Shown: positions 11,604 through 59,756 of the stretch, piece by piece
How positions within the stretch are numbered: position 1 is the first letter of the stretch
How the letters are laid out: each line of letters begins with the position of its first letter
Origin: Roseimaritima multifibrata
Lineage (GTDB): Bacteria; Planctomycetota; Planctomycetia; Pirellulales; Pirellulaceae
Reading direction: 5' to 3'
NCBI RefSeq assembly: GCF_007741495.1
Contig: NZ_CP036262.1
Coordinates: 6,262,001-6,326,000 of the forward strand
DNA length: 64,000 bases
Position numbers and translations under genes: made by a program
The notes under the pieces: model-generated
Seen by the model: the letters and a program-made list of their open reading frames with translations, nothing else
Databases searched by the model: none
Told to the model about the DNA's origin: nothing

Positions 11604-12173
11604 CGCAGCTCCGCCTAACTCGCAGCTCCGCCTAGCCGTAGCTACGCCTCTCCGAGGCGGAGACCCAGCAAGCACGAGTCTCGGAGAGACTCTACTACGT
11701 GCCAGCGCAGCCATTTCACTCCGCCTAACCCTCGTAGCTCCGCCTCTCCGAGGCGGAGACCCCAGCAAGCACGAGTCTCGGAGAGACTCTACTACGTGCC
11801 AGCGCAGCCATTTCACTCCGCCTCCACCTCGTAGCTACGCCTCTCCGAGGCGGAGACCCCAACAAGCACGAGTCTCGGAGAGACTCTACTACGTGCCAGC
11901 GCAGCCATTTCGCTACGCCTCACCCTCGTAGCTACGCCTCTCCGAGGCGAAGACCCCAGCAAGCACGAGTCTCGGAGAGACTCTACTACGTGCCAGCGCA
12001 GCCATTTCACTCCGCCTCCACCTCGTAGCTACGCCTCTCCGAGGCGAAGACCCCAACAAGCACGAGTCTCGGAGAGACTCTACTACGTGCCAGCGCAGCC
12101 ATTTCACTCCGCCTCACCCTCGTAGCTCCGCCTCTCCGAGGCGGAGACCCCAGCAAGCACTAATCTCGGAATG
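11604..12173. repeat. 97-bp tandem repeat array A (six units)
   Basis: The reference position of the second hairpin recurs at 11675, 11772, 11869, 11966, 12063 and 12160, a period of exactly 97 bp. Each unit holds hairpin 1, CCGCCTC-TCC-GAGGCGG (written CTACGCC or GGCGAAG in some units), and hairpin 2, GAGTCTC-GGA-GAGACTC. CTCTCCGAG of hairpin 1 is also complementary to CTCGGAGAG of hairpin 2, so the two can pair with each other. The last unit is degenerate (CTAATCTCGG) and ends three bases before the stop codon of the next minus-strand gene. The array fills the gap between two convergent genes. Transcription termination or boundary function is inference. Confidence 0.93.
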
Positions 12174-20989: not shown

Positions 20990-21053
20990 CAAACCCCAAT
21001 CTCAGCAAACGAAGACGTTCATCGACTCAGCACACGCATCGCCCCCAAACGTA

Positions 21054-21233
21054 GTAGCGCCGCCTAATCTGGTAGCGCCGCCTAATCTCGTAGCGCCGCC
21101 TCTCCTCGTAGCGCCGCCTAATCTCGTAGCGCCGCCTCTCCTCGTAGCGCCGCCTCTCCTCGTAGCGCCGCCTCTCCTCGTAGCTCCGCCTCTCCTCGTA
21201 GCTCCGCCTCTCCTCGTAGCTCCGCCTCTCCGA
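21054..21233. repeat. 18-bp tandem repeat, ten copies
   Basis: The block GTAGCGCCGCCT recurs every 18 bp at 21054, 21072, 21090, 21108, 21126, 21144, 21162, 21180, 21198 and 21216. The last three copies read GTAGCTCCGCCT. The unit equals the head of the 97-bp repeat (TCGTAGCTCCGCCTCTCC), and the tenth copy runs directly into a full 97-bp unit. It therefore looks like a local expansion of one sub-unit. Confidence 0.9.
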
Positions 21234-21332
21234 GGCGGAGACCTCAGCAAGCACGAGTCTCGGAGAGACTCTACTACGGGCCAGGGCAGCGATGTCACAT
21301 CGGCTCACCCTCGTAGCTCCGCCTCTCCGAGG

Positions 21333-21728
21333 CGTGCGATATATAAATGAAGAAAGTCTGGCTCCCCTCGCCCTTAAGCGAGCTCTTTGGTGCGGAAGAA
21401 ATCTCTGCTAGTTCATAGCGTGATCTCTGCCTCTTTGCTTGATTTAGTGGAGCTCGCTTGGGGGAGAGGGGCTGGGGGAGAGGGGGAGATTTCCAGGCGG
21501 CGATTTTGCAGCCAAGACGCGGTGAACACCTCGGATTTCAAGCGGTTATGCCACGCCTTGCCCAACGCTGTCGGCCCCTCTCCCCCAGCCCCTCTCCCCC
21601 AAAGCAAGCCTTTGAATCGTACTTAATTGCATTAGCTGGCGAACCGATGATCCGGTATCAAACCTGTTTTAGGCGAGCTTGTTTTGAGGGCGAGGGGAGC
21701 CAGACTTTCTTCACTTATTCTTTTCACG
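21333..21728. repeat. 396-bp palindromic element, copy 1
   Basis: The two ends are inverted repeats of about 40 bp. Both begin CGTG, then differ in about ten bases, then match through TGAAGAAAGTCTGG and the following CTCCCCTCGCCC. Inside, a 28-bp G-rich segment (21458-21485, pattern G5-AGA-G4-CT-G5-AGA-G4/5) has an exact inverted partner at 21575-21602. Each arm is thus also a G-quadruplex motif on one strand. The element sits inside hairpin 1 of a 97-bp unit. The 15-bp palindrome CGCCTCTCCGAGGCG is present on both sides, as expected of a target duplication, in which case the element proper is 21335-21726, beginning TG and ending CA. It has no transposase. It could be a non-autonomous element or a structured RNA. 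Confidence 0.9.
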
Positions 21729-21932
21729 CCTCTCCGAGGCGGAGACCGTAACAAGCACGAGTCTCGGAGAGACTCTACTACGTGCCAGCGCAGCCATCTC
21801 ACATCGGCTCACCCTCGTAGCTCCGCCTCTCCGAGGCGGAGACCTCAACAAGCACGAGTCTCGGAGAGACTCTACTACGTGCAAGCGCAGCCATTTCGCA
21901 TCGGCTCACCCTCGTAGCTCCGCCCCTCCGGA

Positions 21933-22328
21933 CGTGCGATATATAAATGAAGAAAGTCTGGCTCCCCTCGCCCCTAAGCGAGCTCTTTGGTGCGGAAGAA
22001 ATCTCTGCTAGTTCATAGCGTGATCTCTGCCTCTTTGTTTGATTTAGTGGAGCTCGCTTGGGGGAGAGGGGCTGGGGGAGAGGGGGAGATTTCCAGGCGG
22101 CGATTTTGCAACGAAGACGCGGTTAACGCCTCGGATTCCAAGCGGTTATGCCACGCCTTGCCCAACGCTGTCGGCCCCTCTCCCCCAGCCCCTCTCCCCA
22201 AAAACAAGCCTTTGAATCGTACTTAATTGCATTAGCTGGCGAACCGATGATCCGGTATCAAACCTGTTTTAGGCGAGCTTGTTTTGAGGGCGAGGGGAGC
22301 CAGACTTTCTTCACTTATTCTTTTCACG
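21933..22328. repeat. 396-bp palindromic element, copy 2
   Basis: Same length and architecture as copy 1, 600 bp further on (one 503-bp period plus one extra 97-bp unit). The left copy of the flanking 15-bp palindrome is altered here (CGCCCCTCCGGACG), the right copy is intact. Confidence 0.9.
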
Positions 22329-22391
22329 CCTCTCCGAGGCGGAGACCCCAGCAAGCACGAGTCTCGGAGAGACTCTACTACGGGCCAGGGC

Positions 22392-22394
22392 AGC
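22392..22394. repeat. Target duplication AGC, left of the IS3 element
   Basis: AGC at 22392-22394 is repeated at 23668-23670. Joining the flanks restores GGGCAGCGATCTCG, which occurs uninterrupted at 24169-24182. Confidence 0.85.
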
Positions 22395-22438
22395 TGAGGT
22401 GGTGCCGGTTTTGGGGGCCACCGGGAAGCTTGCGCCGC

Positions 22439-23330
22439 TCATGCGGCGGCTTCGTACTGTGTCGGCGTGAGGTAGCCGAGAGATGAATGTCGGCGATCGG
22501 TGTTGTAGTACTGGATGTACTCAGTCAACTCGCGTTTTGCGATCGCCATACTCAGGTATTCGGCCATACCCATTTCAGTCTTGAGAGTTCCGAAGCATGA
22601 TTCCATAAATGCATTGTCGTAGCAGTCGCCCGCACGACTCATGCTCTGTCGCATTGATGCACGAGAGAGAATTCCACGATACCGCTTTCCTGCATATTGG
22701 CCACCACGGTCAGTGTGGTGAATCAATCCTGCCGAAGGCTGCACAGCTCGAATCGATCGCTGAAGAGCTGTCACAGCGAGTTGTTCAGTCATGTCATCGC
22801 GGAAATCCCATCCAACAATCCGGCGTGAATAGCGATCCATCAGCGTGGCAAGATATCCAAAACCAATACCATCGACGGGAATGTACGTAATGTCGCCTAC
22901 CCAAAGTTGACCAAAGGTGGTCGGTTCTAGCAGATCCAGCAAAAGGTTAGGACTGTACCCAAGCCGATGTCGACTTTCGGTGGTTCGCGGCTTAAACGAT
23001 TTCGGCTGAATCGCGCGAAGTCCTGCATCTTCCATGAGTTTTGACACTCTGCGACGGCCGCAATGAATGTCCATTGTCTTCAGTTCCTCAACGATTCGAC
23101 GGCTGCCATAGCGGCGTTTATGCTTTCGGAAGACCGCAGTGACGATCGGCAGTAACGCGGCATCAGACTCATCGCGCTCCGAGCCTCCGGAACGCTGCCA
23201 GGCTTGAAAGGAAGACCGATTGAGCGATAGGAAATCACAGACCTCTCGCTCGGATGCTATCTGCAGCTGGACAATCGACGCGGCAGCGGGATAGATTTCG
23301 GCTACTCGTTGCGGCCGAAAATGATTAACG
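22439..23330 (-). CDS. IS3-family transposase OrfB (frameshift product)
   Basis: This frame encodes the catalytic half of the transposase. It is entered by -1 slippage from orfA at A-AAA-AAG (23337-23331), after which it reads SVNHFRPQRVAEIYPAAAS. It contains the HTH_21-type FRKHKRRYGSRRIVEEL and the DDE core: GDITYIP (first Asp), HTDRGGQY (second Asp) and AFMESCFGTLKTE (Glu). The C-terminus YYNTDRRHSSLGYLTP is the family signature. An internal ATG at 23074 could give a shorter product, but it lacks the helix-turn-helix part. Confidence 0.93.
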
Positions 23331-23586
23331 CTTTTTTTAAGACGTCGCGCTCCCGCTCGACGCGACGCAACTGATTCTCCAGCTCTTTGACCCGATCATC
23401 CATCGCGTCGGCCACCGGGCCTGCGGCTGTCAACTGCTGCTGTTTCCACCGACGGACGATGGTTGGGCAGGTAATGCCCAGACGTTCTGCCACCGACTTT
23501 GCGGAGTGCCCATCGAGGAGCATTTGAACTGCCTCTCGCTTAAAGTCTTCATCGTAAACCCGTCGCGTTTTTGCTTTCTTGGCCAT
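23302..23586 (-). CDS. IS3-family OrfA (HTH_Tnp_1)
   Basis: A 94-residue DNA-binding protein. Residues 8-55 form the HTH_Tnp_1 domain (YDEDFKREAVQML, then AERLGITCPTIVRRWKQQ). A leucine-zipper-like coiled coil (VKELENQLRRVERERDVLKKAL) follows and in this family mediates dimerisation. Translation either ends at the TAG after GRNE or slips back one base at the seven-A run (complement of 23332-23338) to make the OrfAB transposase. Confidence 0.94.
   Translation of the reverse strand: MAKKAKTRRVYDEDFKREAVQMLLDGHSAKSVAERLGITCPTIVRRWKQQQLTAAGPVADAMDDRVKELENQLRRVERERDVLKKALIIFGRNE
23331..23340 (-). promoter_or_regulatory. Programmed -1 frameshift site of the IS3 element
   Basis: On the minus strand the sequence is TTAAAAAAAG. 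The heptamer A-AAA-AAG allows both tRNAs to slip back one base from the orfA to the orfB frame. This is the established mechanism of IS3-family expression; slippage here is inferred. Confidence 0.8.
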
Positions 23587-23712
23587 CCATGATCCCCAGG
23601 AGCTTGTGGTTGATAGTCATACCAAATTTTTAGCTTCCTGGTGGCCCCCAAAACCGGCACCACCTCAAGCGATCTCGCATCGGCTCACCCTCGTAGCTCC
23701 GCCTCTCCGAGA

Positions 23713-24108
23713 CGTGCGATATATAAATGAAGAAAGTCTGGCTCCCCTCGCCCCTAAGCGAGCTCTTTGGTGCGGAAGAAATCTCTGCTAGTTCATAGCG
23801 TGATCTCTGCCTCTTTGCTTGATTTAGTGGAGCTCGCTTGGGGGAGAGGGGCTGGGGGAGAGGGGGAGATTTCCAGGCGGCGATTTTGCAGCCAAGACGC
23901 GGTGAACACCTCGGATTTCAAGCGGTTATGCCACGCCTTGCCCAACGCTGTCGGCCCCTCTCCCCCAGCCCCTCTCCCCAAAAACAAGCCTTTGAATCGT
24001 ACTTAATTGCATTAGCTGGCGAACCGATGATCCGGTATCAAACCTGTTTTAGGCGAGCTTGTTTTGAGGGCGAGGGGAGCCAGACTTTCTTCACTTATTC
24101 TTTTCACG
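23713..24108. repeat. 396-bp palindromic element, copy 3
   Basis: Same length and architecture as copy 1. Its distance from copy 2 is 1780 bp. Subtracting the IS and its 3-bp duplication (1276 bp) leaves 504 bp, the normal period. Confidence 0.9.
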
Positions 24109-24215
24109 CCTCTCCGAGGCGGAGACCTCAGCATGCACGAGTCTCGGAGAGACTCTACTACGGGCCAGGGCAGCGATCTCGCGCCGGCTCACCCCCGTAG
24201 CTCCGCCTCTCCGGA

Positions 24216-24611
24216 CGTGCGATATATAAATGAAGAAAGTCTGGCTCCCCTCGCCCCTAAGCGAGCTCTTTGGTGCGGAAGAAATCTCTGCTAGTTCATA
24301 GCGTGATCGCTGCCTCTTTGCTTGATTTAGTGGAGCTCGCTTGGGGGAGAGGGGCTGGGGGAGAGGGGGAGATTTCCAGGCGGCGATTTTGCAGCCAAAA
24401 CGCGGTGAACGCCTCGAATTTCAAGCGGTTATGCCACGCCTTGCCCAACGCTGTCGGCCCCTCTCCCCCAGCCCCTCTCCCCCAAAACAAGCCTTTGAAT
24501 CGTACTTAATTGCATTAGCTGGCGAACCGATGATCCGGTATCAAACCTGTTTTAGGCGAGCTTGTTTTGAGGGCGAGGGGAACCAGACTTTCTTCACTTA
24601 TTCTTTTCACG
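24216..24611. repeat. 396-bp palindromic element, copy 4
   Basis: Same length and architecture as copy 1, 503 bp after copy 3. It has a few point differences: GAACCAGACT instead of GAGCCAGACT in the right terminal repeat, and GATCGCTGCC instead of GATCTCTGCC. Confidence 0.9.
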
Positions 24612-24718
24612 CCTCTCCGAGGCGGAGACCCCAGCAAGCACGAGTCTCGGAGAGACTCTACTACGGGCCAGGGCAGCCATTTCGCATCGGCTCACCCCCG
24701 TAGCTCCGCCTCTCCGGA

Positions 24719-25114
24719 CGTGCGATATATAAATGAAGAAAGTCTGGCTCCCCTCGCCCCTAAGCGAGCTCTTTGGTGCGGAAGAAATCTCTGCTAGTTC
24801 ATAGCGTGATCTCTGCCTCTTTGCTTGATTTAGTGGAGCTTGCTTGGGGGAGAGGGGCTGGGGGAGAGGGGGAGATTTCCAGGCGGCGATTTTGCAGCCA
24901 AGACGCGGTGAACACTTCGGATTTCAAGCGGTTATGCCACGCCTTGCCCAACGCTGTCGGCCCCCCTCCCCCAGCCCCTCTCCCCCAAAACAAGCCTTTG
25001 AATCGTACTTAATTGCATTAGCTGGCGAACCGATGATCCGGTATCAAACCTGTTTTAGGCGAGCTTGTTTTGAGGGCGAGGGGAGCCAGACTTTCTTCAC
25101 TTATTCTTTTCACG
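24719..25114. repeat. 396-bp palindromic element, copy 5
   Basis: Same length and architecture as copy 1, 503 bp after copy 4. One arm of the inner repeat carries a T-to-C change (CCCCCCTCCCCC), which leaves the fold largely intact. It is followed by six 97-bp units without further elements. Confidence 0.9.
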
Positions 25115-25712
25115 CCTCTCCGAGGCGGAGACCCCAGCATGCACGAGTCTCGGAGAGACTCTACTACGTGCCTGGGCAGCGATCTCGCATCGGCTCACCC
25201 TCGTAGCTCCGCCTCTCCGAGGCGGAGACCCCAGCAAGCACGAGTCTCGGAGAGACTCTACTACGTGCCTGGGCAGCGATCTCGCATCGCTCACCCTCGT
25301 AGCTCCGCCTCTCCGAGGCGGAGACCCCAACAAGCACGAGTCTCGGAGAGACTCTACTACGTGCCAGCGCAGCCATCTCGCATCGGCTCACTCTCGTAGC
25401 TCCGCCTCTCCGAGGCGGAGACCCCAGCAACCACGAGTCTCGGAGAGACTCTACTACGTGCCTGTGCAGCGATTTCACATCGGCTCACCCTCGTAGCTCC
25501 GCCTCTCCGAGGCGGAGACCCCAACAAGCACGAGTCTCGGAGAGACTCTACTACGTGCCTGGGCAGCGATCTCGCATCGCTCACCCCCGTAGCTCCGCCT
25601 CTCCGAGGCGGAGACCCCAGCAAGCACGAGTCTCGGAGAGACTCTACTACGTGCTACTCCACCGACCTGGAGGCCTAGCGATGCCTGAAACCACGGAAGG
25701 ACAGCGTCGATA

Positions 25713-49318: not shown

Positions 49319-50906
49319 GAATGGCACGGGCATAAGCGACGAGCCACTACCGGTAGTGACTGAGGTCATTTGCTATCCCTGCTGGCAGTGCCAGCAAATA
49401 GTGGCAGCATTTAATGTGCCAGATATTAGCTGAAACGCACGACGAGACTCCGCTTAAATGGCGTTGTTAACTCAGCCCTTTAATGGAGACCTCGCCGTGC
49501 AAGACCAATGTAACGACTCCGCTGCCGAAGTTCAAAGCAAACTCCGCTGTGCCTCGTCTTTGGTGCTGGACCTACTGCTGCCGCAGGCTGAAGTCAGCCG
49601 CATCTGTCGTGAGCTTGGATATTCATTTCGAGACCGTCTCTTCAACCCGATGGTTGTTGTGTGGATGTTTGTCTCGCAAGTTCTTTCAGCCGATCACAGT
49701 TGCCAGCAGGCCGTCACTCGCTTCAACGCATGGCGTGTCGCTAGAGGGCTTGCTCGAGTCAGTAGTGAGACCACTTCATATCGCAAAGCACGTGGCAAGC
49801 TTCCCGAACAACTCTTTGAACGATTGTTGGCCTGGACTTCAAAACGATGTGACGAAGCGACGAACGGAGCGTGGCTTTTCAAGGGCCGGCTTGTGGAGAT
49901 GGTTGACGGTTGGACCGTGACGATGGCGGACACTAAAGAGAATCAGCAGCAGTATCCGCAGATGAAGAGTCAGAAGCCGGGATGCGGTTTCCCGATCGCA
50001 AGAATGATTGGGGTGTTCTCTTTAGCAACGGGCTCCATTCAATTCAATGTGTTGGCTCCCTATCGAAGGAAAGCAAACTGGTGAGACATCCTTGTCTGCG
50101 AACGATTATCGACCGCATTTTACCGGGCCGAATCCTGCTGGCCGACCGCTACTACGCGACCTTCTGGTTGTTGGCACTAGGAGAAACTCGTGGTATTGAT
50201 TTAGTCGCTCGCGCCCATCATCTAAGGAGGATTGATTTTCGCAAAGGGCTGAAGCTTGGCTACTTGGATCAACTGGTTATCTATCGAAAACCGGCTCGCC
50301 CAAAATGGATGAAACAAGAAGAGTACGACAGCATTTCGACCATGATCTTTGTTCGACATTTGAAGTACAAAGTCCAGCAGAAGGGATTCCGGACCCGAGA
50401 GATCACGTTGGCGACGACGTTGCTGGATGCTGAAATCTACACTGCTGAAGAACTTGCTGAACTGTATCGCAGGAGGTGGCAAGTGGAACTGCACATCCGC
50501 AGCTTGAAGACGCAAATGCAGATGGAACACCTCCGCTGCAAAAGCCCTCAAATGGTTCGCAAAGAAATCCACTGCCATATGATTGGGTTCAACCTAGTTC
50601 GCGCGGCGATGCTCGCATCCGCATTGAAGTTCCAATTGTGTCCAACGCGACTGAGCTTTACCGGCGCGATGCAGGCGTTGGAGGAATTCGCGGCTTGCTT
50701 GCGTCTGCATTCCACGAACCGCACACAGCAGTGGGACAACTTGCTTGAGACGATCTCTGAGTTAGCGGTAGGGGACCGGCCAGGGCGTCAAGAAAAACGC
50801 GAACTCAAACGCAGACAAAAAAATTATAGACTCATGACTGCCCCGCGAAACCCAAACCGAAACCGTTATGCTACAGCAGCTTAGGAACTATGCCCGTGCC
50901 ATTCGG
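49319..50906 (+). mobile_element. IS4-family element with 9-bp target duplication
   Basis: The ends are inverted: GAATGGCACGGGCATA from 49319 and TATGCCCGTGCCATTC ending at 50904. Direct repeats ACCATGCGC lie outside at 49310-49318 and 50907-50915. The exact border is uncertain by one or two bases. The length of about 1.59 kb fits the family. The transposase is frameshifted. Confidence 0.85.
49458..50884 (+). pseudogene. IS4-family transposase, frameshifted
   Basis: The first frame (49458-50084) begins MALLTQPFNGDLAVQD and contains NPMVVVWMFVSQVLSADHSC and the first DDE Asp in EMVDGWTVTMADT. The second frame carries RILLADRYYATFW (second Asp), LYRRRWQVELHIRSLKT (the Y-x2-R-x3-E-x6-K signature with Glu) and a basic C-terminus. 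The two overlap around 50040-50080, where one shift is needed. The shift site shows no typical slippery run, so I take it as a mutation. Confidence 0.87.
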
Positions 50907-50966
50907 ACCATGCGCCTTTTACCGTGGCGAAGCAGCAACACAATTTTTCATTTGCGTATTTCGTTT

Positions 50967-51116
50967 AAGATTTTTGTTCTACCAAGCTTCGCCGAAGGGC
51001 TGCCGGTGGTTGTCATAGAAAACTTGGCCGTCGGCACGCCAGTAGCTACAACTCATACTGCAGGAATTCTAGAATCAGGGCTCCCGATCCAAAACGGCTG
51101 GCTGAGATCGGATTGA
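50967..51116 (+). pseudogene. C-terminal fragment of a GT4 glycosyltransferase
   Basis: The frame reads KIFVLPSFAEGLPVVVIENL, then GTPVATTHTAGILESG and NGWLRSD before the stop. It aligns with the E-x7-E region of GT4 enzymes, for example FVLPSFAEGLPVVIMEAFAS in the gene at 45222-46469. The differences are too many for a recent copy of that gene. Everything upstream is missing, and the IS4 element ends 60 bp before it. Confidence 0.75.
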
Positions 51117-51261
51117 TCGGACGAACTGGTGTAAACGGGCAGCACAACATTTTAAAAAGGAGACTTCGAAATTTGCAGACTTGTTCCGAAAGAGCTTTAC
51201 TGAGGATAGTGAGCGGCAAGAAAGACATGGATCGCCCTTATGCATTTGGATTCGTTCGACG

Positions 51262-52428
51262 ATGATTATATTTTATTTTTTATTAGTGATCGCTTTGATA
51301 GATGGGTTACTCCTGGGCGTGCTTGCTATTGAATTATGGACCGCGTTTTTGCCTACGCGGCGATTGAGACGTGGGGAGAGATTGGATGTCGCCGTTATCG
51401 TCCCGGCTCATAACGAAAGTGACGGCATCACTCGCACGCTGGAATCCCTAAAGCAGCAATCTCTGCCTACCGATCGCCTTCTTGTTGTCGCCGACAATTG
51501 CACCGATGATACTGCCGATTGCGCTAGAGCGACCGGGGTCGAGGTTATCGAAAGATTTAAGGATACAGCGCGAGGCAAGGGATACGCCATCGATTTTGGG
51601 ATCCAACACTTGCGAGTACGTCCACCGGCGGTGGTCGTCATTTGTGACGCTGACTGCACTTTAGAACCGGGCAGTCTTGACAGTCTTGCGAGCCAGGTAA
51701 GCTGGACTGGCAGTCCGGCGCAAGCGCTCTACCTCATGCGGCAACCAAAGATTCCCGGCCCCGAATCCTCCGTATCTGCGTTTGCGTTTTTAATTAAAAA
51801 TTGGGTGCGACCACGAGCGTTAGATCGAGCGGGTCTTCCGGTCATGCTGACCGGTTCGGGCATGGCATTTCCGTGGTCAGCGATTGCCACCATCGATGTT
51901 GCCTCCGGCGAAATTGTGGAAGATCTCGCGATTGGCCTGAAATTGACCCGTCGTCGATTGGGACCGAAATTCTGTGAATCAGCCGTTGTGTGGAGTGAAC
52001 TGCCGGCCAATCCAGAAGCCGTCGTCGCGCAGCGTACGCGATGGGAGCACGGTTACCTAGCGACGATTTTTCGAGACGTCCCGAAGTTGGTTCGCGATTT
52101 TTTTAAGTCTGGCCGGATAACATTGCTGGCGGTTGCCCTCGATTTATCCGTTCCTCCGCTCGCACTGCTCGTGCTTGTGTCAGCACTCGTAGCATCGCTT
52201 ACCCTCATTTATGGACTAGCGACCAATTTATGGCAACCATTTTTGCTTGTCGTTCTTCCGGGCTTGTCAGCCGCACTGGGGTTAATGGCTGCGTGGTACG
52301 GTTTCGCCCGCACACAGCTTCCCGCAAAACTCGTACTTTCTATTCCGTTGTATGTTTTAAAAAAGCTTAATATTTACCGGCGTTTTGTTACAAAACGTCA
52401 ACAAGACTGGGTACGCACTCAGCGCTGA
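51262..52428 (+). CDS. Membrane GT2 glycosyltransferase
   Basis: A 388-residue family 2 enzyme with an N-terminal membrane segment (IIFYFLLVIALIDGLLLGVL, 2-21). DVAVIVPAHNESDGI, VVADNCTDDT, VICDADCTLEPG (D-x-D) and the C-terminal TRWEHGY (Q/R-x-x-R-W type) motif are all present. Three or four more hydrophobic segments end the protein. This is the processive-like GT2 layout, but single-transfer enzymes share it. The frame is open 27 codons upstream; ATG 51262 begins the membrane segment. It seems intact despite its damaged neighbourhood. Confidence 0.87.
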   Translation: MIIFYFLLVIALIDGLLLGVLAIELWTAFLPTRRLRRGERLDVAVIVPAHNESDGITRTLESLKQQSLPTDRLLVVADNCTDDTADCARATGVEVIERFKDTARGKGYAIDFGIQHLRVRPPAVVVICDADCTLEPGSLDSLASQVSWTGSPAQALYLMRQPKIPGPESSVSAFAFLIKNWVRPRALDRAGLPVMLTGSGMAFPWSAIATIDVASGEIVEDLAIGLKLTRRRLGPKFCESAVVWSELPANPEAVVAQRTRWEHGYLATIFRDVPKLVRDFFKSGRITLLAVALDLSVPPLALLVLVSALVASLTLIYGLATNLWQPFLLVVLPGLSAALGLMAAWYGFARTQLPAKLVLSIPLYVLKKLNIYRRFVTKRQQDWVRTQR

Positions 52429-52512
52429 CGCGCCATGCGCATGATCTCACACAAGAAAAGAACGAGATAATGCCACCCTGCTAATTCTCGTTTTATTAAG
52501 GAATTTTCATAG

Positions 52513-53400
52513 ATGCGAATCGTTTTATTAGGTAGCAGCGGCTACGTAGGTTCTGAATTTCGAACGCAAATTGCAGCTCGCAATGGAGAACTTGTTTCGA
52601 TAGGGCGAAGCGACTGCAACGTCTATGACGCAAAACAACTGTCGAAACACCTACATAGACTATCAGCAGATGCGCTGATCAATTGTGCCGGCTACACCGG
52701 CAAACCGAATGTCGATGCGTGTGAACTTGACAAGACAAATTGCTTGGCGGGCAATGCCGTACTGCCGGGCGTGATCGCAGAAGTTTGCGCGAACCTAGAC
52801 ATCCCCTGGGGGCATGTTTCCTCGGGCTGCATTTACACCGGCAGACGCGAGGATGGCGACGGATTTTCCGAAGCAGATCCTCCGAATTTTTCATTCCGGC
52901 AAGACAACTGCAGTTTCTACTCCGGCACAAAGGCACTTGGTGAAGAAATGCTGGTCGATGCTCCCAAGTGTTTTGTATGGCGGTTGCGTATACCCTTTTC
53001 CAACGTGGACGGACCACGAAATTATCTCACAAAGGTTATGCGATACAACAGGCTACTTCAGGCTGAAAACAGCCTATCAAATCTCTCCGATTTCGTTTCG
53101 GCGGCCCTGGATTGCTTTGAGAATAAAGTACCCTACGGCATCTATAATTTGACCAACCCGGGGAGCGTGACCACACGACAAGTGGTGCAGTGGATTCAAG
53201 AAAGCGGCGTCTGTGACAAGGAATTTGAATTCTTTGAGAACGAAGAGGACTTCATGGCAAAGGCCGCTTCAACACCGCGCTCAAACTGTGTGCTCGATAG
53301 CAGCAAGGCAGTGGCAGCCGGACTGAGCCTGCCGCCAGTCGATGAATCAGTAAAAGCGGCGCTGCAGGCGTGGATCTCAGAGTCGACCGCAAATGCTTAA
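52513..53400 (+). CDS. RmlD-like sugar-nucleotide reductase/epimerase
   Basis: A 295-residue SDR of the RmlD_sub_bind type. The NAD loop is GSSGYVGSEF (7-16). INCAGYTGKPNVDACE replaces the usual I-N-x-A-A-Y-T motif of dTDP-4-dehydrorhamnose reductases. HVSSGCIYTG gives the Ser, and YSGTKALGEE the Tyr-x-x-x-Lys pair. The ATG at 52513 has AAGGA ten bases upstream. With RmlA at 57018 it hints at a deoxysugar pathway, but RmlB and RmlC are not seen, and the sequence is closer to plant-type epimerase/reductases in style. Confidence 0.83.
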   Translation: MRIVLLGSSGYVGSEFRTQIAARNGELVSIGRSDCNVYDAKQLSKHLHRLSADALINCAGYTGKPNVDACELDKTNCLAGNAVLPGVIAEVCANLDIPWGHVSSGCIYTGRREDGDGFSEADPPNFSFRQDNCSFYSGTKALGEEMLVDAPKCFVWRLRIPFSNVDGPRNYLTKVMRYNRLLQAENSLSNLSDFVSAALDCFENKVPYGIYNLTNPGSVTTRQVVQWIQESGVCDKEFEFFENEEDFMAKAASTPRSNCVLDSSKAVAAGLSLPPVDESVKAALQAWISESTANA

Positions 53401-53782
53401 TCACCTTTCTTGACACTGAACAAGACAACTCTTAGCCGGGCGTTACTCGCTTTAGTGGTCGATGCTTTCGCCGATGACGTCGATAATGTGTCGCGACTAT
53501 AATCGAAATCAGCCAGATATTACGGGAATGAAACAGGAAGCTCAACCGCACCTCCAAAGCAGCCATCCGTGAGAGGGTTAAATGGTTTCATCGAGAAGAA
53601 CTTGCACGGATAAACGCCTTGTGACGCGAAGGCGGCACAAGGTGGAGATGCACTCGCGTCGTTTCGCGATAAAACATTTATGGCCAAGGAAACCAAATGC
53701 AGCATGACGGTGACAGCGTTAAGGCATGGCACGGCCATCGCATCAAAATTCAGGTTAAGTATTCGCAGGTGGGTTGTCTGGG
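53401..53782. other. Intergenic stretch before an ISAs1 element
   Basis: No gene is supported here. The ten bases GTTGTCTGGG at 53773-53782 are the left target duplication of the next element. Confidence 0.4.
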
Positions 53783-53797
53783 CAGGGCCGACGCACA

Positions 53798-55132
53798 CTA
53801 AGTCGTTGGTATTCCAAGGACTTTGGCAAGGAAGTTGGGATTCCAGCCGGCCATTCGGCGACGCATGGCGATGCTTTCTTTGTCGTCGACCTGCTTTAGT
53901 AGGCTGATTGCGAAACGTTTTAGCCAAGCGAGGTTGTTCGCTAGGGTGCGATTTCGAACGCTACTGTCATCGTCTCGGAAGGTTATGTCCAAGCACCAAT
54001 GAAGCGTGTTCTCGATTCTCCAGTGGCCGCGGACGCTTGCAGCGAATCGCTTCACTCCAAGCTTTAATGAACTGATGTAGTAACGAACGTCCGATGTCCA
54101 TTTTTCGCCGCACTCACTCATCCGAATAACCACGCCAATTGTTCACATCCCCTACCACTGGTCCTTGCCCGCCAAGCCTTCGGGAACAGGCAGGTGATAG
54201 TAGACAAGCTCATCTTCACGGCCATGCCCTTTGAGCCGTTCGACATGCTTGCGAGCAGTGACCTCTGCGAAGTCATTTTCCATGTGCTTGACGATGTACT
54301 CTATTACCGCGTTGTGCAAATTTCCTTGATTGCCCTTCAACGCCAATACGTAGTCGCCTTTCCCGTCGATGATCTTAGCGGCGATATTCTTTTGACAGTC
54401 CGCAGCGTCAATGGTGACTACCGATTTCTCAATGTCGATTTGGTCGAGGAGCTCAGGAATCGCAGTGATTTTATTCGATTTCTCTTTGGTCACCAACTGC
54501 CCCAAACTGATCCCTCGTTTGACTGCCCAAGCGCTGACAAGGAACAGCAGCCCCAGTCCACCAGAGCGGTCATGGCTGCGGCGAAGGGCTTTTCCATCAA
54601 TCGCAACGATGTCCAGCTCATCATCGGTTCGCTGGCCAGAGAGACGTTTAATCCAGCGTTCAAAACAAGCTTGAAATGCAGATGGCTTGAGCGTCATCAA
54701 GACACGGCCGATCGTATCGTGGGACGGAACGCCCGATGGCAATTCCAGTCGCTCCTTCAGCCAAGCCTCGTTACTCTTGGCCCAAACACCAAACACCAAA
54801 CACCAAACACCAAACACCAAACACCAAACACCAAACACCAAACACCAAACACCAAACACCAAACACCAAACACCAAACACCAATCGCCAATCGCCAATCG
54901 CCAATCGCCAATCGCCAATCGCCATAGGCTCTTCGGCGCCGGCGATAACTGCCATAATGCTAATTACGATAATGTCGCCGAGCAGGTGACGCTGGTTAAT
55001 ATACGAACGCGGATCAAGCAGTTCGGCAAAGTCTTTGAGGATTTCTTCAACATAGATATCAGTCGCTTTCTTCTTGGCCAAGTCACCGCATCCGATCGTC
55101 GTTTGGAAAACAAAGTTAACGACACGAATCAT
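53798..55132 (-). pseudogene. ISAs1-family transposase with stops and repeat expansion
   Basis: The frame encodes KKKATDIYVEEILKDFAELL, HLLGDIIVISIMAVIAGAEE, a repeat insert, then WAKSNEAWLKERLELP, VAIDGKALRRS, VVTIDAADCQKNIA and HWRIENTLHWCLDITFRDDD (pieces of the DDE_Tnp_ISAs1 domain). Two nonsense codons in the same frame, TAG at 54152-54154 and TGA at 54143-54145, separate the catalytic part from the C-terminus, where relatives would read K or a similar residue. The insert keeps the frame open. The transposase is probably inactive. Confidence 0.88.
54783..54922. repeat. 7-bp tandem repeat, twenty units, inside a transposase gene
   Basis: Fourteen copies of CAAACAC (54783-54880) are followed by six of CAATCGC (54881-54922). 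On the minus strand, three units make 21 bp, so the protein repeats in sevens: AIGDWRL twice, then VFGVWCL four times and VFGVW. Relatives of this transposase have a single short A-I-x-x-W segment here, so the tract appears to have grown by 18 units (126 bp) without breaking the frame. Confidence 0.93.
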
Positions 55133-55258
55133 TGCGGATCCAACTCGACCGCGCTACCCCCAGATTGCCTAAAATGCGTGTCGGCCCTGGTTGTCTGGGG
55201 GAAGGACGTCAGCGAAAGATTTGTCTAGACGGATTGAACCATTTTTTCCAGAACGGAT

Positions 55259-56395
55259 TTGCCGATGTCCAGCAAGCAGGTGCTAGCGTTTCAGGAATGT
55301 TTCGAGGTTGTTGACGCCCCACATGTCGAGAAACGCTGCGACCATCCTCTTGATTCGATTTTGTTTTTAGTTGTGTCTGCGGTGATTTCCGGTGCCGATG
55401 GTCTGTCGACATCGAAGACTTTGGAAATGAAAAAAGGAGTGGTTGGAGAAGTTTATCAAACTTCCGCACGGCATACCCTCGCATGACACCATCGGGCGGA
55501 TCCTGTCGCTACTCAAGCCCGCTCAATTTCAACAAGCGTTGATGGACTGGATCGGTCGGCTCCGAAGTGAGCACAGCACTGACGGCCCGATCGTCGTTCC
55601 CATCGACGGAAAGACCGCACGAGGCTCCTACACCGATGCTGAAAAGTCGAATGCGTTGCACATTGACAGTGCATGGGCAACGGACCACGGCATTACGCTT
55701 GGGCAGGTCACCGTGGATTCGAAGTCCAATGAAATTACAGCGATTCCTCAGTTGCGCGACATGATGGACCTTCGCAATACTATAATTACGCTCGACGCGT
55801 TTGGCTGCCAAAAATCCATTGCAAAGAAGATTACCGATGGGGCGGGGACTACACCTTCGTCCTGAAAGTTAAACACCCGACTTTCATGAAGGCGGGTGAA
55901 AAGGTGTTTTTGGATACCTACGAAGAGGGCTTGGTTGAGCAAGGTTTTCGTTCCAAAGTCGTAAACGAGAAAGGAGACGGCCGCGTCGAAGAACGAAGTT
56001 ATATCGTCGCTCCAATCCCGGTGGATCTGCGGGACTTAGTGAAAGACTGGCCTGGTATCAAAAGCATCGGTCAGGCCATTACCATGGTCACGAAGGGCGA
56101 TAAGCAGACTGCGGAAGTGCGTTATTACATCAGCAGTCGACGCGCGAAAGTTTCCGAATTTGCCAATTCGGTTCGCAAGCACTGGGGCATCGAGAGCATG
56201 CACTGGATATTGGATGTGGTGTTCAATGAAGACGGCAGCCTTATTCGAACGGGCAACGCGACGTAGAACATGAGCTTCGTTCGACGTTTCGTCACGAGCC
56301 TACTCAAACAGGACACTTCGCGTTCCAACTTGAAGGGCAAACGGAAACGCGTTGGCTGGAACACTGAGTTCCTTGAAAAACTAATGTCTGGCTGA
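55259..56395 (+). pseudogene. Second ISAs1-family transposase, degraded
   Basis: Three pieces in order match an ISAs1 transposase. The first (from 55259) has QVLAFQECFEVVDAPHVEKR and HPLDSILFLVVSAVISGADG. The second (55443-55865) has LPHGIPSHDTIGRILSLLKP and VPIDGKTARGSYTD. The third (from 55886) has VRYYISSRRAKVSEFANSVR and HWGIESMHWILDVVFNEDG; a TAG at 56264-56266 is followed in the same frame by NMSFVRRFVTSLLKQ to TGA at 56393-56395. Two frameshifts and one stop separate them. The sequence differs clearly from the neighbouring ISAs1 copy, so it is an independent arrival. I could not define its ends. Confidence 0.85.
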
Positions 56396-56549
56396 TATTT
56401 TGATGCGATGACCGTGCAAGGAATGGGCAGGTGAAAGCCAATGGAGATGTTGGAGAGCTGACCTTGCTCGGTTTAAGAAGCACGGTTACTCAGGCTGGAG
56501 CTCCGAAGGTTTTCGGGCACTCTCCATTTACCGTTTGCAGTGAGGACTA

Positions 56550-56919
56550 ATGAAACGTCAACCTAAAATCATTTGGTTGCCGCTTCGTTTAATAGTGGCT
56601 TTCACGACGAAGTTACTAACCAGTGTCACACACATCAGTTTACCCAAAGAAGCCTCTATCGGAGGCGGACTTCTGATTCCGCACCTTGGTCCCATCCAAG
56701 TGAACCCTGACGCCAAAATCGGATTTGACTGTGCGATCCATCATGTGGTGACGATCGGCGATCGAAAGCCCGGTAATTGGGGACCATGTCATGATCGGCT
56801 GTCACGCCTGCATCCTAGGGGGAATCCAGATCGGAAACAACGCAAAGATCGGTGCAGGCGCTGTTGTGATTAGAGACGTTCGGCCTGGAGGCACCGTCGT
56901 GGGGCCAGCGGCGAACTAG
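56550..56919 (+). pseudogene. CysE-like acetyltransferase, frameshifted
   Basis: The first frame (from 56550) reads ITHISLPKEASIGGGLLIPHL-like segments (THISLPKEASIGGG, LLIPHLGPIQVNPDAKIG) and [14 protein letters not shown]. After about 56775 the homologous sequence continues in another frame as [37 protein letters not shown] and GPAAN to TAG at 56917-56919. These are hexapeptide repeats of a serine-acetyltransferase-type enzyme, as in the intact gene at 41461-42060. The N-terminal helical part is short. Confidence 0.8.
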
Positions 56920-57017
56920 ACTTTAGCCACGTGTTCAAGATTGCACTCTGCCGCATCAGCGAGCAAAGTGCTCTCCAACCCATTATCTTTATTTCGTCAG
57001 ACCGAAAGATCTCTAAT

Positions 57018-57890
57018 ATGACTCGCAAAGGCATCATCCTAGCAGGAGGCACCGGCAGTCGACTGCATCCGGTTACGCTGGCGGTCAGCAAGCAATTGCT
57101 GCCGATCTACGACAAGCCGATGATTTACTATCCACTATCTACGCTCATGTTGTCGGGAATACGTGAGATTCTGGTCATATCGACGCCGCATGATTTGCCC
57201 GGATTCCAACGATTATTAGGGGACGGTTCCCAGTGGGGCCTGTCCCTAACTTACGCCGAACAACCCAGCCCAGACGGTTTGGCACAGGCCTTCATTATCG
57301 GGCGCGACTTTATTGGCAGCGATTCGGTAACCTTAGTCCTGGGCGATAATATTTTCTACGGGCAGGGCTTTCGAAATATATTGGCCGCAGCCGGGCAAAA
57401 AAAGGATGGGGCGACGATATTTGGCTATCGAGTTACCGATCCGGAGAGGTACGGGATCGTCGAGTTTGACCAAGCAGGCAAAGCCATCTCCCTTGAGGAG
57501 AAGCCCGCCAAACCAAAATCGCGATACGCAGTCCCTGGGCTTTATTTCTACGACAATCAAGTGGTCGACATTGCTGCAAACCTGCAGCCATCGTCCCGAG
57601 GTGAACTGGAAATTACCGACGTCAACAAAGAATACTTGCAAACGGGAACACTTAATGTCAAAGTCTTTTCGCGAGGGTTTGCCTGGCTAGACACGGGGAC
57701 ACGCGATTCCCTCCTGGACGCCTGCAATTTCGTGGCTGCGATTGAAAAGCGGCAGGGCCTGAAGATCGCTTGCCCCGAAGAGATTGCTCAAGCAATGGGA
57801 TTCATTGACCGCTCCCAGCTTGCAACGCTGGGCAAAGGCATGCAAAACGAATACGGGGATTATCTCCGGGGGATCGCAAGTGGCGATTAG
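57018..57890 (+). CDS. rfbA: Glucose-1-phosphate thymidylyltransferase
   Basis: A 290-residue nucleotidyltransferase making dTDP-glucose, the entry to dTDP-sugars such as rhamnose. The signature [11 protein letters not shown] with [18 protein letters not shown] (residues about 9-40) is diagnostic. LGDNIFYG carries the metal-binding Asp, and [10 protein letters not shown] and [12 protein letters not shown] complete the family pattern. Length is normal. The ATG at 57018 was chosen; the frame is open 29 codons upstream without homology. It appears intact between two damaged regions. Confidence 0.95.
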
Positions 57891-58019
57891 CGCCGGCAAG
57901 TCATACGCTCGCAATCTCCAGTAGATTTACGCCAGAGCGCTTGAGTAACTTCAATTAGCGTACTGCAAAGATGAGATATCCTCTTACTTTCCGCCGTCGG
58001 AAGCTAAATGCCCATAATT

Positions 58020-59756
58020 GAGCCCGCATTACTGACCAGCAGCGGGAGCGGTGTCGGATTTGGTCGTTTCGTGCTGACTGTCTCGTCGCATCTTCGTTTG
58101 TCCATCAATTTGATCATCGGCGTACATCAGCCCCCTCCCCAAAATTGTTTTTCGCTGCGACGGGCGCTGCTAGCCGCGAAAGACTTCGCGGCAGAAGGCG
58201 TGGCCCGGCGGCGGCCAGAAGCCGTCCTGCTGACACGCGACTGGCGGTGGCACTTGCCTTTCAAGCGATCGGTCAGATGAGACCACAGGGGCACCGCCGA
58301 ATCGGCGATCCACACGACAAGTCGACGAGAATGCTTGATCATCTCCCCACCAACCTTCAGAACGAATGGCACGAACCGGCGCATGTCCCAACACCCGCCC
58401 ACACTGTCTTCGAGTTCATTGCGACAGATCGTGTTGAGGTTAAATGCTAGTAATGCCAGAAGCATCGTCGCTTCATTGGCCTTAAACGCTTGCGAAGACA
58501 AGTGAACGCCTATCGATTCACTAAACTTGCCCAAACGATCCTCGAACGCCCCTCGCTTGCGGTAAAAGCAAAGCAGTTCTTCGCCGCTGCGCGAGGAGTA
58601 CGGCCAGTTCGTATCCAAGAAGAACCAACAAGGCATCGGGTTCAACTGGCCGGTCGTCGCGCCCGGCTTGTCGACCACCACGAGGATTAATCGCTGTGCC
58701 TGTTCCCATATGTCAACTTGGTAAGACCCCAGTTCGACGGTGTACTCATAACCGCCCCCTGGCGGACGCACTGCTGGACGAGACAGATGCAACGCAGCCA
58801 ACTTATCAAGCTTCGAGTTCCCCTTTAAACGCCCTACAAAAAGCCTGCCGTTGGGAGCCAATGCGTCCATCACACTGCCAATCGTGTACCCCGCATCGCG
58901 TCGGTAATCGACGTACTGTGCGACGGTGTGAGCCTTCGCATCGGTCTTGTCGACGAAGCGTTTTATGCCGTTGGCGGTGTGGACCTGCCCTTGCGGAAGA
59001 GTTGCGTGAATGAATCCGCTACCCAGCCGATTTCCCTCCCGTGCGCTGCTGTAGTCACCGCCCACGCTCAGTGAAGCGACCAGCGAATGATAGACTGCTT
59101 TTCGGTAGTAGCCGTTGCATTGAGCTCCGTGTTGCTTGGAGTGAACCTCAGTGGGAAAGCTATCGATGTCGACGGTCGTGATGCGAACACGGCGTCCCCC
59201 GGAGGCGACGACATGACGCTCGACGCTTTGGGCCAAACCGTCTCGAAGGGCTTCGAGGTTGCCGGCATGTTCGGTCAAGATGCTGATCAAGCGAAACTGC
59301 GTGAGTTGGCAGGCGAGTCGTTGGTGGACGACGCCGTCGCCGATGCGATTCCAGACCGCCTTGCGAAACGCTGGGGCATGGGTAAGTCGGTCCACGTCGT
59401 CTTGGGGGAGCACCCGATGGCCATCGCAAAGACCTGTCCACGGATCAATTCATCGATTTGGTATTGGATGCGGTCCGGCCAACGAGAATCGCGGATGTCC
59501 TTGGCGATTGTGTCAAAAAGCCCGAGTCGATCCTCGGCCTCTCACAGCAAAATCACGCGGGCACTGGAAGTGATCCGGTAGTCAGTTGCTTGAAATTTGA
59601 CGGAGCGATTGAACTGGGGCTCGAAAAGGTTATCTTGGTGTTCACCCATCGCGTGTTTCTGCCTTGCGTTTAAGTTGGTTGTGGTTAACCGTTAAAAGTA
59701 GCGGATCACCCGATGGTTTCTACCGCAAGGAAGCTCTTAGTGAATAATGCGGGTTA
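58020..59756 (-). mobile_element. IS1380-like element A, degraded
   Basis: CCCGCATTACTGAC at 58023-58036 and GTGAATAATGCGGG at 59740-59753 are imperfect inverted partners that bracket the transposase remnant. The borders are approximate and no target duplication was found. The transposase carries a stop and a frameshift. Confidence 0.55.
58127..59649 (-). pseudogene. IS1380-family transposase A, inactivated
   Basis: The frame starts at ATG 59649 (MGEHQDNLFEPQFNRSVKFQ). It has an in-frame TGA where relatives read R in LL-R-EAEDRLGLFD, and continues to MAIG. A frameshift near 59413 then leads to LPQDDVDRLTHAPAFRKAVW and onward through TTVDIDSFPTEVHSKQHGAQ, DYRRDAGYTIGSVMDAL and YRKRGAFEDRLGKFSESIGV to 58127. 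The central D-x-D-x-x-P/T region and the RGAFEDR block are typical of the family. It differs strongly from copy B at 60144. Confidence 0.82.

Follow-up and report, generated by a model that had tools for sequence, protein, structure and literature searches.

The subject of this report is a 396-bp repeat present in five ungapped copies within a 64,000-nucleotide stretch of the Roseimaritima multifibrata chromosome (NZ_CP036262.1, positions 6,262,001 to 6,326,000; hereafter, the window), where it is embedded in an array of repetitive extragenic palindromes (REPs) together with an insertion sequence (IS) of the IS3 family (Table 1). The element is probably a non-autonomous, REP-hairpin-targeting repeat resembling a miniature inverted-repeat transposable element (MITE) and carrying a mirrored pair of triplex motifs (TMs). 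The copies are 97-100% identical to copy 4, the reference for element searches, and differ from one another by 3-10 mismatches per 396 positions. Their terminal inverted repeats (TIRs) span 31 nt at 97% identity (94% for copy 4 against its own right end); in some copies the repeats continue, less well matched, to 57-61 nt (81-84%). No open reading frame of at least 150 aa lies inside any of the five. An earlier note on this DNA, which described five copies of equal length with inverted-repeat ends and no transposase of their own, is thus borne out; TIRs, lack of a transposase and a high copy number are all MITE features.

The arrangement of the window copies speaks to their history. All five occupy the identical place of the ~97-bp tandem unit; the right junctions are the same in 5/5 copies, and the left junction CTCCGGACGTGCG is common to copies 2, 4 and 5, with copies 1 and 3 deviating at the extreme end. 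The copies are spaced by 503, 503, 600 (503 + 97) and 1780 bp (503 + the 1273-bp IS + 4). The shared unit position, junctions and 503-based spacings are therefore most simply explained by one insertion into a REP unit, its amplification in tandem with the 97-bp GTAG-type unit, in which the repeating period would have been 503 bp, and a later split by the IS3 element. Given a single insertion followed by amplification, the equal length of the window copies points to a common origin and does not indicate constraint. Equal length belongs to these copies; at other places in the genome, matches covering most of the query can be as short as 355 bases. A second array of 97-bp GTAG REPs (window positions 11676-12122) contains five matches of the unit's second palindrome, and no 396-bp element is listed there. 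An 18-bp tandem repeat, GTAGCGCCGCCTCTCCTC, at 21053-21230 adjoins the element-bearing array and is apparently related to its GTAGCTCCGCCTC part.

Table 1. Positions of the element copies and associated features within the window.
Feature	Position	Strand	Remarks
Array of ~97-bp units, GTAG + CTCCGCCTCTCCGAGGCGGAG hairpin	21213..25660	+	GTAG-type REP by sequence; elements in hairpin of five units
Element copy 1	21330..21730 (396-base alignment 21336-21731)	+	5' end degenerate: GAGGCGTGCG replaces GGACGTGCG
Element copy 2	21930..22330 (396-base alignment 21936-22331)	+	GGACGTGCG...CACGCC
IS3-family element, 1273 bp	22395..23667	-	In array between copies 2 and 3; AGC flanking each side
Element copy 3	23710..24110 (396-base alignment 23716-24111)	+	5' end GAGACGTGCG
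Element copy 4 (reference)	24213..24613 (396-base alignment 24219-24614)	+	
5' pyrimidine strand, copy 4, CTCCCCTCGCCC	24245..24256	+	Drawn paired with 3' GGGCGAGGGGAA (outer stem)
G arm, copy 4	24343..24368	+	Purine strand and third strand of left triplex motif; same arm at 21460, 22060, 23840, 24846
C arm, copy 4	24458..24483	+	Right triplex motif on minus strand; 25 nt exact also at 21575, 22175, 23955; copy 5 with one change
Element copy 5	24716..25116 (396-base alignment 24722-25117)	+	
Element end/boundary motif			GGGACGTG

The core of the element is built on a G arm of pattern G5-AGA-G4-CT-G5-AGA-G4 and an inverted partner. The pattern is exact in 5/5 copies and measures 26 nt, not the 28 bp first reported; the partner begins 88 nt after the G arm in copy 4, close to the 90 bp given before, and its supposed exactness holds in part, over 25 nt in four copies, with one T-to-C change in copy 5. 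The G arm has a G4Hunter score of 2.85, and element arms make up 10 of the 11 clusters in the 64 kb that score at least 2. The earlier note knew of no named family with this design, which is wrong for the core. Read from the sequence, the core has the order pyrimidine CCCCTCGCCCC, purine GGGGGAGAGGGG, loop CT, GGGGGAGAGGGGG, i.e., the pyrimidine, purine and purine-third-strand blocks of the Box C/PIT/TM intrastrand-triplex motif. On this reading it is a mirrored pair of that known motif, in class II order and with enlarged hairpin loops. The competition between hairpin and quadruplex proposed earlier is plausible; the published structure of such a core is an intrastrand triplex, with the G-quadruplex as a possible competitor.

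Holder et al. (2015; PMC4666352) report that the E. coli motif gives a stable triplex in vitro and name a quadruplex as a possible competitor. The likeness extends to the Y-R-third-strand order, CCCC TCGCCCC ... GGGGGAGAGGGG CT GGGGGAGAGGGGG, to a C(T/G)CCC mismatch of the E. coli 'mm' type, also present in E. coli copies such as CCCTCGCCCCTTTGGGGAGAGGGTTAGGGTGAGGGG, and to mirrored pairs, of which E. coli K-12 has five. The element differs in its hairpin loop of ~64 nt, compared to 1-6 nt in the published search, in its 88-nt spacer, and in having long outer inverted repeats whose ends are common to other elements. In copy 4, the first loop has 64 nt between the paired blocks, and the hairpin of the window copies has ten additional base pairs besides; the second loop, CT, is short. 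The third-strand unit GGGGGTGAGGGGG recurs in 13 aligned rows from G003, a genome of the same genus. Units of 14 nt have been gained or lost in the arms of several aligned copies (e.g., L064, L069, L070, L071), in line with the published instability of TMs. Since the query contained part of the motif, searches also surfaced a planctomycete contig (L104/L181) in which a compact mirrored pair with short loops is enclosed by a further, different inverted repeat. The same searches met short-loop motifs, alone or in pairs, in contigs named Thermosynechococcus, Pseudanabaena, Ktedonobacterales and Cupriavidus.

The element is dispersed. The genome (7.2 Mb, one contig) holds 241 matches of all lengths. 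Near-complete copies number 62: the five in the window and 57 distinct others, each covering at least 330 of 396 positions, found on examining 63 loci (58 rows, one locus being seen twice). Joined by hand, the 62 copies fall into 43 neighbour groups. G003 contains relatives, the longer matches being 68-76% identical to the window copy, and 17 of its 24 examined loci match a G003 reference over at least 200 nt. Matches listed for genome G001 are short (best 31 and 36 nt), genome G002 has no element match, and a distant-mode search of the plasmid collection with the element found none. A 19-nt TIR-proximal pattern is present in 13 of 199 genomes of the family, with a reversed control at 0; only two genomes have it in abundance, the own genome at 133 places and G003 at 23. 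The surroundings of its G001 match (L109) are by eye the same as those of L157, from Roseimaritima sediminicola, which makes Roseimaritima the most likely genus of the window.

The ends of the element are not private to it. The outer end GGACGTGMRATTTATA, here called the shell, occurs exactly at 52 places in the own genome, TM copies included, and at none with the reversed pattern. Of 20 further loci, 19 supplied 24 such ends; clustered by inner sequence together with the two TM ends, these formed nine clusters, four of them with several members; one of the four unites the TM element with L192, and the shell is thereby common to at least three other inner-sequence families. L192 (positions 130-310) is a very short derivative in which the outer stem is kept, both triplex arms are gone and a hairpin remains. 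In G003, two different shells enclose the same core: among 17 copies, eight are bounded on both sides by CCACCGCCGG and four by GGGACGTGAA, one of the latter (L081) also showing the other shell motif on one side; the remaining five carry a shell motif on one side or none.

Many copies are found inside two types of REP hairpin, the GTAG-type CCGCCTC-TC^CGAGGCGG and CTTTCGC-TC^CGCGAAAG. Uninterrupted forms of both exist: the CCGCCTC hairpin is common in the window array, and the CTTTCGC hairpin GTCGCCTTTCGCTCCGCGAAAG has 38 exact occurrences in the own genome, and 161 when up to 2 mismatches are allowed (control 0). By flank classes that are loose and were defined after inspecting the flanks, 44/62 left and 28/62 right flanks belong to a REP class; both flanks do so in 25 copies, 21 of which have the same class on both sides (~10.3 expected, by hand). 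After arrays are reduced to 43 loci, the same class borders both sides in 14 of 16 cases, against 6.6 expected. In some copies (e.g., L020, L053, L007, L016, L069), the joined flanks form, by eye, a REP hairpin cut after CTC. A class-free permutation of raw flank complementarity reached the observed value in 3 of 5000 trials with all 62 copies. The earlier suggestion of a non-autonomous mobile element thus gains support from three sides: dispersed copies with recurrent ends, the same ends on other inner sequences, and a position in REP hairpins that also exist uninterrupted.

Several observations count against this interpretation. In 15 of the 62 copies neither flank falls into a named REP class, and only 31 match the shell with at most one mismatch at each end. 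Collapsing arrays to 43 loci raises the raw flank permutation to 230/5000; the test is therefore weak and, as evidence for REP targeting, suggestive only. Target-site duplications are 0-3 bp by eye, a range confounded by palindromic flanks and C runs. No orthologous empty site was found in a sister species at the single locus tried, whose flanks match G001 and G003 at different places. Finally, among eight Y1_Tnp and 15 DDE_Tnp_1 matches, the families searched, no gene lies between shell ends as its own, and L190, L225 and L226 have a good shell end on one side only. The transposase with the same terminal repeats that the earlier note proposed to seek elsewhere in the genome was thus not found at these 23 matches.

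Some loci at first resembled autonomous relatives. In L223, the only one of the 23 matches with an end on each side, a transposase lies between two shell ends, and the 1530 bp that it shares with L224, a second IS copy, are wholly inside them; this candidate was set aside. L094, with element ends 2 kb apart, is actually an element copy that contains an IS, and among many further shell-like end pairs 0.6-4.5 kb apart the good ones inspected join neighbouring copies. Four DDE_Tnp_1 matches, two with internal stop codons, cluster at window positions 50033-59179. The IS in L094 (positions 626-2327; own genome ~3186878-3188579) is also present in L232; it has ends TGGACTGTCAAAAA / TTTTTGACGGTCCA and encodes a 538-aa transposase, with two identical protein copies and a fragment, that gives no Pfam or NCBIfam match at E 0.001. 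It makes a 9-bp target duplication, GGCTGGGGG in L094 and GCGTGGGAC in L232. Derivatives of 181 bp occupy the very same triplex-motif base in L073 and L088, and the L232 insertion lies outside the motif. In G003, a different short element (L086, positions 330-558, ends TGGCCTGGTAAAAA; L077 similar by eye) abuts the arm GGCTGGGGG; in L086 its two flanks are inverted, not direct, and the motif has therefore been rearranged.

The nearest rival holds that the element is REP/BIME-like and was spread by a RAYT (Y1 transposase), with the TM pair moving as a REPIN-type doublet of single-stranded hairpin DNA. Inverted hairpin doublets, REP hairpin targets, the lack of a clear target duplication and the eight Y1_Tnp matches in the genome would all suit such a history. 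Published REP dimers are likewise inserted in palindromes: in Di Nocera et al. (2013; PMC3733652), GTAG REPs are reported from Planctomycetes and empty targets from T. roseum, and GTAG/CGTC REPs resemble the element as hairpin doublets inserted within other palindromes. Their units differ, being 20-40 bp long with a tag at one end, whereas the element is ~10 times longer and no such end tag was seen. Of the Y1_Tnp loci, L190 is bordered on one side by a good shell end (GGGACGTGCGATAAATAAGTTGAC), L183 carries a weaker end and L185 just the 8-mer. Against this, a RAYT gene flanked by the element, as expected for a RAYT-mobilised REP or REPIN, was seen at none of the eight loci: within 1.5 kb on each side, 0/8 contain the TIR-proximal or TM motifs searched (CTGGCTCCC, CCCCTC[TG]CCCC, GCCTTTCGC or GTAGC[TA]CCGCCTC), and several are flanked by quite different repeats. 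Spread by a RAYT is accordingly unlikely.

The element is strongly structured. Copy 4 folds with z -10.6 as single-stranded DNA and z -8.8 as RNA (0/100 shuffles each). A structure drawn from copy 4, with an outer stem, hairpin 1, the G/C-arm hairpin and hairpin 3, was evaluated on 48 of 79 copies (35/62 from the own genome, 13/17 from G003; tandem duplicates and some others were omitted by hand), cells being set aside where arm columns are missing, in 5 to 9 rows. Paired cells make up 95.2%, and 12 pairs have changed on both sides (65 such cells). Covariation is 0.085, versus 0.058 (sd 0.003, 0/500) in shuffles that ignore relatedness, and at most 0.035 when the structure is slid. It is clear at column 40/386 (mostly G-C to T-A; 12 sequences with a double change), 149/261 (A-T to T-A; 13) and 50/125 (A-T, G-T, G-C); the count of further pair types lies within the shuffled range (170/500 reach it). 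Most double changes separate the two species and therefore represent few independent events. Double changes are absent from hairpin 3 and from the longer part of the arm hairpin, both of which hardly vary, and the outermost part of the outer stem is poorly conserved (columns 16, 20, 23). Unaided, RNAalifold gave 47 pairs, six with double changes, and recovered hairpins 1 and 3 as well as the inner section of the outer stem, with the G arm paired in another register. Support from compensatory changes extends to the outer stem, to hairpin 1 and to a portion of the arm hairpin, and pairing between the arms, the loss of which in copies elsewhere would have undone the earlier description, is kept. 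Such conservation cannot separate DNA from RNA.

Conserved pairing would also be expected of an intergenic element useful to the host, e.g., one that terminates transcription in both directions or insulates convergent genes from each other, if recombination copied it and selection on pairing maintained it. Gene context agrees with this: when gene orientation is roughly approximated by the largest open frame to either side, 11 of 15 loci are convergent, four co-directional and none divergent (P = 1.2e-4 against 25%; loci from L006-L030, arrays collapsed by hand, omitting L013, in which the IS transposase of L094 supplies the left frame, and the array L014/L026/L057; one co-directional case, the array L017/L018/L023, is ambiguous). 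A convergent bias is, however, also expected from promoter avoidance, while the nesting in other repeats, the tandem arrays and the 14-nt arm gains and losses look selfish; for the E. coli PIT motif, earlier work saw no promoter or terminator activity, according to the introduction of PMC4666352. A host function as the reason for the element's spread is improbable. Least credible, and very improbable, is a structured non-coding RNA, for which the RNA fold and compensatory changes might speak, since DNA pairing would look identical, several copies stand in tandem arrays, and an Rfam search of the window returned nothing at gathering score.

The reading as a MITE-like, REP-targeting repeat has a precedent in the IS elements that, according to Tobes and Pareja (2006; PMC1525189), enter palindromic REPs at one fixed point. 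The element shares this single fixed point, but those are full ISs with genes, whereas it is gene-less and is found in REPs of more than one family. On this reading, it would have been moved in trans by a transposase that recognises the common ends, choosing palindromic targets, as hairpin or cruciform, mostly between convergent genes. The triplex- or quadruplex-forming core probably travels as a passenger, or else its structure aids mobility by exposing single strands. The composite combines an expanded TM pair with the MITE-like, REP-targeting element around it, and is as such a larger version of a known kind of repeat rather than a wholly new one; a title-level literature search and the papers PMC4666352, PMC1525189 and PMC3733652 yielded no published description of the whole.

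A broader proposal, tentative and rather doubtful, is that a mobilisation system in this genus recognises hairpins or cruciforms and inserts at the symmetry centre of palindromes, giving Russian-doll repeats with exchanged shells and cores. The Box C/TM motif is reported from >260 bacterial genomes, and PMC4666352 describes no link to mobility genes; if true, a symmetry-centre insertion system would provide a missing route for its spread. The core lies within an element that has recurrent ends and identifiable uninterrupted targets, which makes both the spread of the motif and any role of a triplex or quadruplex in it testable in one genome.

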